Below, one piece after another: positions 55,988 through 59,730 of a stretch of 64,000 bases of DNA (position 1 is the stretch's first letter; each line of letters begins with the position of its first letter). The notes below the pieces were generated by a model. It was given only the letters and a program-made list of their open reading frames with translations. It was not told where the DNA came from and did no database searches. The stretch is from Mycobacterium barrassiae (GTDB taxonomy: Bacteria > Actinomycetota > Actinomycetes > Mycobacteriales > Mycobacteriaceae): contig NZ_JACKUK010000042.1 in the NCBI RefSeq assembly GCF_025822765.1, positions 81,814 through 145,813 on the forward strand. Direction: 5' to 3'. A program made the position numbers and the translations under genes.

Positions 55988-57219
55988 CCTCGGTGGCGGG
56001 AGCACTCGCCGAGATCGACTTCACCGATCTCGACAATTTCGCCAACGGCTTCCCGCACGAACTGTTCGCGGTCCACCGTCGCAAGGCCCCCGTCTACTGG
56101 CACGAGCCGACCGCCAACACCCCCGACGGCGAGGGCTTCTGGTCGGTCGCGACACACGCCGAAACCCTTGCGGTGTTTCGAGATCCGGAGACGTATTCGT
56201 CGGTGACGGGCGGTACACGTCCATTCGGCGGCACCCTGCTGCAGGATCTGGCCGTCGCGGGCCAAGTTCTCAACATGATGGACGACCCGCGGCATTCGCA
56301 CATCCGCCGGCTCGTCAGTTCCGGGCTGACGCCGCGGATGATCGCGCGCGTCGAAGACGATCTGCGCACCCGCGCCCGTCGGCTGCTTGATTCTGTGACT
56401 CCGGGGGAGCCGTTTGACTTTCTGGTCGACGTGGCCGCCGAGCTGCCGATGCAGATGATCTGCATTCTCCTGGGTGTCCCTGAGTCCGAACGACATTGGC
56501 TGTTCGAGGCGATCGAGCCGCAGTTCGACTTCGGTGGTTCGCGGAAGGCCTCCGTAGGGCAGTTGACGCCCGAGGAGGCGGGCTCGCGGATGTACACGTA
56601 CGGCCAGGAGCTGATCGCGTCGAAACGCGCCGAGCCGACCGACGACATGCTGTCGGTGGTCGCGAACGCGACGGTGGAGGACGAAAGCCTCTCGGAGATC
56701 GAGCTTTATCTGTTCTTCAGTCTGCTGTTCAGCGCGGGCGCGGAGACGACGCGGAACTCCGTCGCAGGCGGGCTGTTGGCGCTGATCGAGAACCCGGATC
56801 AAATGCACGCGCTGCGCGGTGATCTGGAGCAGCTGCCGACTGCGATCGAGGAGATGGTGCGGTGGACGTCGCCGTCACCGTCGAAGCGGCGCACCGCGAC
56901 ACGTGACGTCGAGCTGGCCGGCTGCCAGATCAACGCCGGCGACAAGGTGCAGATCTGGGAGGGTTCGGCCAATCGGGACCCGGCGACGTTCGAGAATCCG
57001 GATACGTTCGACATCACGCGTAAACCGAATCCGCACTTGGGTTTCGGTCATGGCGTGCACTACTGCCTCGGCGCGAACCTGGCGCGCCTCGAGCTGCGCG
57101 TGCTCTACGAGGAGCTGCTGACGCGGTTCGGGTCCGCGCGGTTGGTCAAACCCGTGGAGTGGACGCGTAGTAACCGGCACACGGGGATGCGTCATCTGGT
57201 GGTCGAACTACGGCCGTGA
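55984..57219 (+). CDS. cyp126: Cytochrome P450 CYP126
   Basis: This 411-residue P450 has I-helix [11 protein letters not shown], ExxR in [10 protein letters not shown] and haem loop [10 protein letters not shown] with C361. It corresponds to CYP126 of M. tuberculosis (Rv0778), likewise next to purB and purC. The physiological substrate is unknown. It starts with GTG overlapping the purB stop and is itself overlapped by the transporter gene, so all three are co-expressed. Confidence 0.95.
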
Positions 57220-58124
57220 GACCCGACGTATTCGCGGCGGTCATGGCGACCGGAATCGTGTCGATCGCGGCCGCGGACCACGGAATCGTCGTCATCAGTG
57301 TCATCCTCATCGCCGTTGCGGCGGTGGCACTTCCGGTGTTGATGGTGATGACGGCCAAGGCGTGGCGGTCATTCGACATGCGCGATCCCAACGTCACATT
57401 GCCGCTGTTCAGCTACGTCGCAGCGTGCGCGGTGGTGGGGGCACGGCTGGCCGAGCATCGCATCGTGCTGTGGGTGTTGGCGGGACTGGCGTTGCAGGCC
57501 TGGGTGTCGTTGGTGCCGTTGGCGGTGCGGTCGATGTGGCGGCACCGGTGGACCGGTCTGCGCGACCGGGCTCACGGGGGGTGGGAGCTCGCGGCGGTCG
57601 CGACGTCCGGTTTGGCGATCGTCTCGGCGCAACTCAACGTCTTGTTCTGGGCCGTGGTGTTCTGGGTGCTCGGGCTGTTCGTGTACTTGGTGATGACGAC
57701 GCTGGTGCTGTGGCGGGTACGGCACGACGCGTCGTCGCCGGAGCTGGTGCAGCCGGATGTCTGGATTCTGATGGGTGGCATAGCGATTGCGACGTTGGCC
57801 GGTGATCATCTGCATCGCATCCTGATACCTGGGCCGATCGCCGACGGTGTGCGTGCGGTGACGATAGTGACGTGGATCGTGGCGACGGTGTGGATCCCGG
57901 TGCTTCTTGTTGTCGTTGTGCGACGATCGGTGGGTTTGGGTTGGCCCGCGGTCTTTCCGCTCGGGATGTACTCGTCGGCGACGTATGCGATGGCGGTGGA
58001 AACCGGTTGGCGGTGGTTCGTCGCGGTGTCGCTGACGTTCTTCGGGATCGCGTTGGCGGCGTGGCTCGTCGTCGCCGGGGACGCTTTTTTGCGATTTCGG
58101 CGTGCTAGGTCTCGCTCAGCGTGA
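57216..58124 (+). CDS. TehA/Mae1-type (TDT) membrane transporter
   Basis: This 302-residue protein has about nine or ten hydrophobic helices and the TDT-family start [18 protein letters not shown] and late motif [17 protein letters not shown]. The family exports C4-dicarboxylates, tellurite-related anions or acts as anion channels. It starts with GTG overlapping the CYP126 stop. The gene ends inside a quasi-palindromic repeat that also holds the end of the convergent DUF559 gene. Confidence 0.88.
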
Positions 58125-58143
58125 CTTAACACGCCGAAATCGC
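58091..58143. repeat. Quasi-palindromic repeat, copy 1 (53 bases)
   Basis: GCGATTTCGGCGTG (58091-58104) and CACGCCGAAATCGC (58130-58143) are perfect 14-base inverted arms enclosing 25 bases with TCTCGCTCAGCGTGA. It contains the stop codons of both convergent genes and would act as a two-way terminator. Its reverse complement matches the element at 59029-59081 at 46 of 53 positions. Confidence 0.8.
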
Positions 58144-58986
58144 CGTACGAATGATGCTGAGCACTCGTTGGGGATGCTCGGTGAGGTCCAGCCAGGTGAA
58201 CCGCAACACCTGCCAGCCCAGTAGCGCGATGTCGTTCTGCCGCTCGCGGTCGATCTGAAAGTCGGCGGCCTGGCTGTGATATGCCCACCCATCGACTTCG
58301 ATCGCGACCCGGTGCGCCGCGAAGGCCACGTCGATCGTGTACCCGCCGACGCGGTAGTTCGCCTGCCAGCCGTCGATGCGTGCGGCGCGCAGGAGCTTCA
58401 GGAGAAGGCGTTCGGCTTGCGACCGGGCGCCGTCGGCGGCGGCCTGAAGCATTCGTCGTGCTGCCGGTGAGCCGTAGCGGCCCTTGTTGCGGAGATGTGC
58501 GCGCCAGAGGTCGCGTAGTTCGGCGTCGCGCTGCAGCGCTGCGTCCATCAGCTTGGCGCCACCACCCCGTCGGACGGCCGCCTCGACGATCGTCAGTGCC
58601 GGTGCGGTCACCCGCAGTCCGTTGTGCACGACGACGTCTGCAGGATTGAGGTCGCGGCGGCGAACGACCGAGCCGTCGTGGCAGCGGCCGTTGCTATCGC
58701 GTGGCACCGTCACCTCGACGATGTCGGGTGCGAACCGGGTGAGGCCGTGCCACCACGCTGCGGCCAAGCCGCTGCCTACGGCGCGGTCGCCGTAACCCCA
58801 GACGGCTGCGCGTATTCGCGCCGCGTTGGTGAAGTCCCTGTCGTCGGCGAAGTACACCCGGCGAGAGCACCGCACCCACTTACCGGCCGTCACGCGACGG
58901 CTCACAGCCTGTTTGGTGAGGCCCGCCGACCTCGCTTGCGCCAGCGTGATGACGCCGTCGTGGCGGCGTAGGTATTCCTCGAGCAT
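58126..58986 (-). CDS. AbiEi-like winged-helix plus DUF559 endonuclease-fold protein
   Basis: The 286-residue protein begins MLEEYLRRHDGVITLAQARS with an AbiEi-type winged helix (LTKQAVSRRVTAGKWVRCS). It has a middle AbiEi-like region and ends in a DUF559/Vsr-like nuclease fold (YTIDVAF, VAIEVDGWAYH, WQVLRFTW) with the acidic D-ExD pattern. Such genes are many in actinobacteria and of unknown role; no toxin partner (AbiEii) is next to it. It is bracketed by two related 53-base quasi-palindromes, and the first supplies its last codons (AISAC). It interrupts an otherwise M. tuberculosis-like gene order. Confidence 0.85.
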   Translation of the reverse strand: MLEEYLRRHDGVITLAQARSAGLTKQAVSRRVTAGKWVRCSRRVYFADDRDFTNAARIRAAVWGYGDRAVGSGLAAAWWHGLTRFAPDIVEVTVPRDSNGRCHDGSVVRRRDLNPADVVVHNGLRVTAPALTIVEAAVRRGGGAKLMDAALQRDAELRDLWRAHLRNKGRYGSPAARRMLQAAADGARSQAERLLLKLLRAARIDGWQANYRVGGYTIDVAFAAHRVAIEVDGWAYHSQAADFQIDRERQNDIALLGWQVLRFTWLDLTEHPQRVLSIIRTAISAC

Positions 58987-59028
58987 GCGTAAAGGACGTC
59001 GACCGCGGGGTCGTCGGTTCCCTCGATT

Positions 59029-59081
59029 GCGGATTCGGCGTGCAGAGTCACGCTCAGCGAGACTTAGCACGCCGAAATCGC
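59029..59081. repeat. Quasi-palindromic repeat, copy 2 (53 bases)
   Basis: GCGGATTCGGCGTGC and GCACGCCGAAATCGC are imperfect 15-base inverted arms around 23 bases with TCACGCTCAGCGAGA. It lies between the DUF559 start (58986) and the stop of the next gene (59089). Compared with copy 1 it is closer in inverted orientation, so the pair brackets the gene like inverted terminal repeats about 0.9 kb apart. Confidence 0.8.
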
Positions 59082-59088
59082 AGAGAAA

Positions 59089-59700
59089 CTAGCGGCGCAC
59101 CCCCGCCGCGCGTAACTCCAGCGCCGCAAGTCCGCGTATTGCCGTCGCATCGTGACCGCGCCACGCGCCGACGGGGTCGGGATGGATCGCCACCAGCTTG
59201 CCGAGTGGTCGGTTGGCGAGTGCCCGCATCGCGAGCAGCTGCTCGCCGGCGGGTGTCCGGGCCAGCGTGATCGCAATCCACTTACGGCGGAAGAACCGGA
59301 TGCGAAGGAAGAGCCACGGCATCGCGACGAACAGAATCGGCGGCGCGGCCACCGCCAACGCCAGCACCCACGCCAGCCACGACGCCGTCGAATCCAGGCT
59401 CTGCCCGGCGCCGGCGATGTCCAGCGCGGCTTCCGCCGCCGCGCGCAGCGGCCTGGCCAGCGAGTCGCCGACGAGCGGGAAGTCGTCAGTGCTGTCGCCT
59501 GCCGAGTTGAGGTTGTCGGCGACGCCGTTGGCGCCGGTCTGCACCCGACGGCCCACTTCGGCGATCGTCGAGACCGCGGCATGCACCGCCATCCCGACCA
59601 ACACCCAGATCGCCGTCCAGGTGATCACGACGGCATCGCTGATCAACTGGGCCAACAGACGGGACGGCGTGGTGGCATAAGGGAGAAACCGCGAACTCAT
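59089..59700 (-). CDS. Membrane protein (Rv0779c-like)
   Basis: From ATG 59700 it encodes 203 residues with a first hydrophobic helix near residues 20-45 (AVVITWTAIWVLVGMAVHAAV) and a second near 113-137 (WLAWVLALAVAAPPILFVAM). A helical, probably external region lies between and a basic cytoplasmic C-terminus follows. The function is unknown. It is divergent from purC with 30 bases between starts, as in M. tuberculosis. Confidence 0.88.
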   Translation of the reverse strand: MSSRFLPYATTPSRLLAQLISDAVVITWTAIWVLVGMAVHAAVSTIAEVGRRVQTGANGVADNLNSAGDSTDDFPLVGDSLARPLRAAAEAALDIAGAGQSLDSTASWLAWVLALAVAAPPILFVAMPWLFLRIRFFRRKWIAITLARTPAGEQLLAMRALANRPLGKLVAIHPDPVGAWRGHDATAIRGLAALELRAAGVRR

Positions 59701-59730
59701 GGACCAGATGCTGCCCGATAAGCTGGCCCG

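Follow-up and report, generated by a model that had tools for sequence, protein, structure and literature searches.

The 64,000 nt stretch of the Mycobacterium barrassiae genome analyzed here (contig NZ_JACKUK010000042.1, positions 81,814 to 145,813; the whole stretch is called the window below) contains a gene for a 286 aa protein, AbiEi-like in its first part and DUF559-like in its second, that lies between two copies of a 53-nt palindrome. In the explanation we favor, and which we regard as likely, the gene and the palindrome are the two parts of one genetic element, in which a protein with a nuclease fold recognizes the 53-bp palindrome at the ends of its own gene. The same palindrome is dispersed through the genome away from the gene, is most abundant in genomes that also have the gene, resembles the copies at the gene's ends in its own genome more than those in other genomes, and covaries base by base with a short loop of the protein. 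Gene and palindrome very probably form one spreading system that resembles repetitive extragenic palindromes (REPs) and is built on an unrelated enzyme.

A nuclease-fold gene framed by palindromes

The gene occupies positions 58126..58986 on the minus strand. Its open reading frame (ORF) could begin as far up as position 59070, at a GTG within the upstream palindrome; the conserved start is the ATG at 58986, whose methionine (M1) is invariant across 21 aligned sequences. The protein retrieved the Pfam families AbiEi_4, AbiEi_1, DUF559 and MTES_1575, which together cover most of its length, as well as DUF559-type NCBIfam matches, while neither database returned a match to a tyrosine transposase (HUH/Y1, related to IS200/IS605). 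Its fold joins an AbiEi antitoxin part to a part of the kind seen in the homing endonuclease I-Bth0305I and in Vsr. The AbiEi-like part, presumed to be DNA-binding, spans residues 1-188 (58423..58986, minus strand), and the DUF559 nuclease part spans residues 189-286 (58129..58422, minus strand), in which D219, E230, D232 and H237 are invariant in 21 of 21 aligned sequences.

The upstream palindrome (59029..59081) is centered 69 nt ahead of the ATG, and the downstream palindrome (58091..58143) takes in the gene's final codons, its stop (58126-58128) and also the stop of the neighboring gene (58122-58124). The two have 23/26 and 21/26 paired positions and are identical to each other at 46 of 53 positions, so that both the bracketing of the gene and the overlap with the neighbor's stop, already described in the initial annotation, are borne out. 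On the downstream side the neighbor encodes a SLAC1-family membrane protein (57216..58124, plus strand), and beyond the upstream palindrome lies the purC-side gene (59089..59703, minus strand), which has no Pfam or NCBIfam match and served as the anchor for comparisons; both are flanking context outside the palindrome-gene-palindrome cassette. The gene is free-standing between gene ends, both here and at the second site discussed below (L166), and no intron or intein was seen.

In named genomes, 22 relatives of the gene were found, at 62-73% identity, the nearest named relatives being Mycolicibacterium and Mycobacterium species. With 80 more loci from genomes of the genus (those ranked directly below the window's own in the gene listing) and two from the window genome, this made 104 loci, or 97 distinct cassettes once seven identical ones were removed. 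An upstream palindrome with at least 18 of 26 possible pairs is present in 91 of the 97, its center always 60-80 nt before the start and, in 80 of the 82 cassettes with at least 19 pairs, 68-70 nt before it. Only 2 of 576 control windows taken from the relatives' flanks attain 18 pairs, which places the palindromes well beyond chance. Both ends are palindromic in 54 of the 97, meaning that a palindrome of at least 18 pairs is found at the expected downstream place as well. Within these 54 two-ended cassettes the left and right ends agree at 46.5 of 53 positions, as against 32.9 of 53 between cassettes, and the own partner is the best-matching end in 36. The arms themselves vary strongly from cassette to cassette (CGGCGTG, CGGCGCG, CGGTGCG, CGGTGTA, GTGCACG, GTGCACC, GTGTGCG, GTGAGTG, GTGGAGT and others).

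Outside the cassettes, the palindrome is common. A general pattern that fixes the outer boxes only (GYGATTT, 39 free bases, AAATCRC) matched 81 times in the 5.9 Mb window genome, and the reversed control pattern matched zero times. Fifty of the 81 copies were listed, and these fall mainly into two arm families, with CGGCGTG or GTGTGCG following GATTT. The ends of the window gene carry CGGCGTG arms and those of a paralogue on another contig (C27:229 kb) carry GTGTGCG arms, so that the genome-wide count envisaged in the initial annotation as a check on a link with DUF559 genes does reveal one: each of the two main families matches the ends of one DUF559 gene. A search for copies with the window's arms (GATTTCGGCGTG), which permitted spacers of 15 to 40 nt, found 45 in the stretches of the genome examined, every one of them 53 nt long. 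The genome has seven DUF559 matches in all, six of them above the family cut-off. A third, divergent DUF559 gene (C27:343.5 kb) is flanked on both sides by an unrelated palindrome, CAGATCGC...GCGATCTG, which the genome holds in 22 copies, all but two of them away from the gene; this locus is a second, divergent instance of the gene-between-palindromes arrangement. That gene (L261:2452-3424; C27:343.4-344.5 kb) is apparently split over two reading frames.

The association holds across the genus. The gene subfamily (E <= 1e-20) was found in 110 of 248 genomes and the general palindrome in 124 of 248; at least three palindrome copies are present in 95 of the 110 genomes with the gene versus 11 of the 138 without it, and the totals are 1318 copies in gene-positive genomes and 107 in gene-negative ones. 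The 248 genomes are related to one another, so that p-values for this association treat them as more independent than they are. Of the 22 named relatives, 13 were also searched genome-wide with the pattern, and every one of these was positive, with 4-21 copies. Moreover, the copies in a genome match the cassette of that genome. In a similarity test covering 11 genomes and 114 listed copies (one of which belongs to a cassette and was included in error), the arms of dispersed copies agree at 14.2 of 19 positions with their own genome's cassette and at 9.7 of 19 with those of other genomes, a similarity to the own cassette that no permutation out of 100,000 attained. In 6 of the 11 genomes the own cassette is the best match among the 11, and in every genome it is among the best three. 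One genome (G068) holds three cassettes with three arm types, all of which are also represented in the dispersed copies that M. elephantis DSM 44368 (G221) carries; the contig coordinates of the two genomes coincide.

Covariation between a protein loop and the palindrome arms

Among the columns of the protein alignment, residues 97, 99 and 100 share the most mutual information with the arm bases. This ranking leaves out residues 278-286, whose codons lie in or beside the downstream palindrome. In the predicted model (mean predicted local distance difference test score, pLDDT, 86.7), residues 97-100 (58687..58698, minus strand) form a loop between strands 90-94 and 106-110, which we regard as a putative recognition loop. 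Counting arm bases N from the end of the GATTT box, residue 99 is H with N6=C and another residue with N6=T (68 of 69 concordant), and S with N7=A and another residue with N7=G (33 of 33). At position 97 the protein has V or I in 21 of 24 cases where N5=A versus 0 of 70 otherwise; residue 98 is other than S in 20 of 20 where N4=T versus 4 of 36 otherwise (among CGG arms); and residue 100 is other than G in 31 of 35 where N2=T versus 6 of 59 otherwise. The strongest of these pairs, residue 99 H with N6=C, involves eight arm changes and nine residue changes on the tree, and of 20,000 simulations of independent traits on the tree none matched the concordance of 68 of 69, the highest reaching 56 of 69.

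Five rules (R1 to R5) were fixed in writing before 40 further loci were obtained, of which 22 could be scored. On these held-out loci R1 holds in 12 of 12 cases, R2 in 4 of 4 and R4 in 7 of 7 (23 of 23 together), and R5 and R3 hold in 19 of 22 and 16 of 22 (35 of 44 together). The other 18 loci were left unscored, their palindrome being decayed or absent or the locus a duplicate; ten of them agree with R1. Residues 97-100 thus track the arm bases in a manner like that of a recognition code, and several lines of sequence evidence lead strongly to the conclusion that the protein specifically recognizes the palindrome.

Another possibility is that the gene belongs to an antiphage or toxin-antitoxin (AbiE-like) system next to which the repeats are incidental. 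The AbiEi profile matches are what such a gene would be expected to give. However, no recognizable AbiEii-type toxin is encoded by either of the two immediate neighbors in the window (the SLAC1-family protein and the protein lacking Pfam or NCBIfam matches), and the matching between protein and palindrome would be left unexplained, making this possibility barely credible.

Dispersed copies, the purC site and movement

The position of the solo copies was assessed against genes predicted simply from ORFs and composition. In the first family, 36 of 45 copies (the window's two counted) are no more than 30 nt away from the 3' end of a predicted gene, 21 of 45 lie between convergent genes versus 12 of 66 background gaps, three lie between divergent genes, and three lie within a predicted gene; in the second family 13 of 15 copies are near a gene 3' end. 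Random positions are near a gene 3' end in 147 of 2120 cases and within a gene in 1769 of 2120. This placement fits insertion being tolerated where it is least harmful, and the solo copies, whose hairpins are stable, possibly serve as terminator hairpins as well.

The simpler reading offered in the initial annotation, that the repeats are abundant transcription terminators which adjoin the gene by accident, gains from this the position of the copies just past stop codons and in convergent gaps, as well as the stable hairpins. The base just before the hairpin, however, is most often T rather than A (41 of 90 at -1 and 46 of 90 at -2, strand-wise flanks), meaning that T-runs tend to precede the palindrome, and accidental adjacency leaves unexplained the genome-wide link to the gene and is contradicted by the residue-base covariation. 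As the whole explanation it is very improbable. The palindrome is often preceded directly by a short T-run and followed directly by an A-run (e.g., at 58085-58091 of the window), the reverse of a classical terminator.

A more serious alternative is that the protein is a regulator and the palindromes are its operators: an AbiEi-like autorepressor would bind the palindrome at -69 and a regulon of solo sites, with the nuclease part idle or engaged in processing transcripts. Cassettes at the purC site are the best argument for it, in that 37 of the 39 keep the upstream palindrome while the downstream one is present in 5 of 39 there (the window's included) versus 49 of 58 cassettes elsewhere; the nearly fixed distance of the upstream palindrome from the gene and the AbiEi-like fold point the same way. 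On the other hand, the solo copies avoid promoters, as the counts at 3' ends and between divergent genes indicate, D219, E230, D232 and H237 are kept invariant, and cassettes are found at different sites. We therefore consider pure regulation unlikely. Within the favored two-part element, the retention of the upstream palindrome in purC-site cassettes, most of which have no downstream partner left, suggests that the upstream palindrome also controls the expression of its own gene. Altogether 34 of the 39 purC-site cassettes are without a clear pair of ends, and the gene there looks settled while its arm type still changes. Several of these cassettes (e.g., L123, L124, L129, L131 and L137-L142) keep the upstream palindrome only.

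The initial annotation had held that the gene interrupts a conserved gene order, and had proposed empty sites in relatives as a check; both points are supported (the cyp126 and purC labels used here are taken from that annotation). Among 24 loci of the same genus with the purC-side neighbor (L083-L106, the window's own included), the gene is present in nine and absent in 15, and in nine of those 15 (L092, L097-L101 and L104-L106) no more than about 125 nt separate the end of the membrane-protein or cyp126-like gene from the purC-side neighbor, so that the two nearly abut. By a cautious criterion the 97 cassettes are spread over about 15 sites, by a strict one over 19. On the protein tree there are 16 site changes for 15 states, with some sites nested inside the clades of others. 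One such case is L166 in a genome (G039) about 91% identical to the window genome, which has two cassettes at the same sites as the window genome and a third, L166, at another site (site 14): L166 falls inside the site-1 group, with the same CGGTGT arms, beside L164 (support 100/93). It fills 992 nt where the ends of two convergent genes meet; its orthologous site in the window genome is empty, which would be the outcome of either a gain or a precise loss. The number of sites, this clean absence and the resemblance of dispersed copies to their own genome's cassette ends together uphold the view of the unit as a cassette.

The dispersed copies were compared between the same two genomes, using one solo site per locus (35 tested, from 43 solo copies). 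At the 34 shared sites the inner parts of the palindrome are 87.6% identical, the flanks 92.9% and the outer arms 96.1%, a pattern that may reflect conversion among the copies or a rapid turnover of the inner part. The sole site lacking the element in G039 (L230, C1:867.5 kb; L020 in the window genome, C44:39.4 kb) holds a different, seemingly palindromic stretch; both stretches lie in the same gap between convergent genes, which looks like the replacement of one hairpin by another.

One could also propose, as a homing-type alternative, that the nuclease cuts alleles or sites that lack the element or differ from it, that repair then copies the element, and that the arms are homogenized by gene conversion rather than by transposition. 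The nuclease part does match the EDxHD homing endonuclease I-Bth0305I, whose family is described as binding targets of almost 60 bp in dimeric form (PMC3943268), and the lower identity of the inner parts relative to the flanks at shared solo sites would suit gene conversion. A homing gene, though, is normally located within its own target site, and here the recognized sequence is repeated at both ends of the gene and at dozens of sites; we regard homing in this form as decidedly improbable.

Several observations weigh against a spreading two-part element and have to be set beside the evidence for it. Eleven gene-negative genomes hold at least three palindromes, and nine gene-positive genomes hold none. 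In these eleven (among them G175, G042 and G040), where no gene passed the threshold used, the palindromes number from 3 to 22; they may have been left behind by cassettes since lost, or the genomes may harbor more divergent genes. In the window genome, four of the seven DUF559 matches (one of them below the family cut-off) are without such palindromes, and in 5 of the 11 genomes of the similarity test the own cassette is not the nearest. As for the covariation, the sign test on well-supported branches rests on only one to three pairs, and three of the unscored held-out loci with decayed but readable arms (L264, L279 and L298) contradict R1. No clear target-site duplication is present; at most 2-3 nt are possible at one clean pair, where indels obscure the picture. 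Of the solo sites tested, 34 of 35 are occupied in both genomes, although the sites were chosen by their presence in the window genome and insertions found only in G039 could not appear. Movement is slow, and the purC-site cassettes, only 5 of 39 of which retain the downstream palindrome, look largely vertically inherited. The suggestion of the initial annotation that this is perhaps a non-autonomous or self-mobilizing unit comparable in form to REP elements holds as to form; self-mobilization itself is a possibility that has to be weighed against the shared solo sites and the few two-ended cassettes at the purC site.

Even so, spreading of the palindrome by the protein is, we infer, the most economical reading of the dispersal, the co-occurrence and the within-genome matching. 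The protein would bind the palindrome, probably with one subunit per half-site and hence as a dimer, its AbiEi-like part reading bases 2-7 after the GATTT box by means of the loop 97-100. The Vsr/homing-type domain would then nick or cut at the element, and break repair or strand transfer may copy the palindrome, or rarely the whole cassette, to new sites, keeping the copies alike. The cassette, at about 990 nt, could in this way come to occupy various chromosomal sites. Solo palindromes would be its non-autonomous offspring, tolerated at gene ends and perhaps also working there as hairpins.

Relation to known systems

REP-associated tyrosine transposases (RAYTs, or TnpA-REP) are HUH tyrosine transposases that act on single-stranded hairpins. 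The window system resembles the REP/RAYT systems, including those with REPINs ('REPtrons'), in that a gene lies between inverted palindromes and the same palindrome is dispersed between genes, and further in the coevolution of protein and repeat, the larger number of repeats where the gene is present, and slow long-term persistence (PMC2817692, PMC8266576 and PMC8049555). It differs in its enzyme, which is AbiEi-like plus DUF559, and in its palindrome, which is fixed at 53 nt and at whose ends the GTAG/CGTC tag described for REP families in PMC3733652 is not seen. Because the defining enzyme feature of RAYTs is absent, we do not count the window system as a REP/RAYT member, even though it appears to work like one.

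Other comparisons are closer in one part and more distant in another. The EDxHD homing endonucleases (I-Bth0305I) and Vsr share the Vsr-type catalytic domain match, but here no intron or intein is seen, there is an AbiEi-like DNA-reading part, and the palindromic target stands at both ends of the gene. AbiEi antitoxins of the type IV toxin-antitoxin system AbiE differ in that here no recognizable toxin adjoins the gene, a nuclease is fused to the AbiEi-like part, and there are dozens of dispersed sites. In miniature inverted-repeat transposable elements (MITEs), too, short dispersed repeats match the ends of a coding element; in our case the entire repeat is one palindrome, and the only gene of the cassette has no transposase match in Pfam or NCBIfam. 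The occurrence of the same unit at about 15 sites, and the one clean 992-nt presence/absence pair, recall insertion sequences. In open-access literature (preprints and most subscription journals lying outside it), no link of DUF559 genes to dispersed palindromes was found among the matches listed, and neither the palindrome arm sequence nor DUF559 together with mycobacteria gave a match; nothing comparable was found in the available parts of PMC12306157 and PMC10117815.

DUF559/Vsr-like genes are mostly unexplained, and one large subfamily of them, present in 110 of 248 genomes of the genus, can now be tied to a definite DNA target. The cassettes provide a natural series of matched protein-target pairs from which a recognition code may be read, and the system supplies an origin for palindromic repeats in mycobacteria. 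We lean, by a little, toward seeing in it a second, independent kind of REP system, in which an AbiEi-type reader joined to a homing/Vsr-type nuclease creates, spreads and homogenizes mycobacterial palindromes, with several codes coexisting without cross-talk and a four-residue loop setting the sequence. The chance that it merits a separate class is substantial. If mobilization is true, the lifestyle of REPs with a dedicated nuclease has arisen at least twice with unrelated enzymes, and two independent origins would make the host role of such systems testable by comparison between them.
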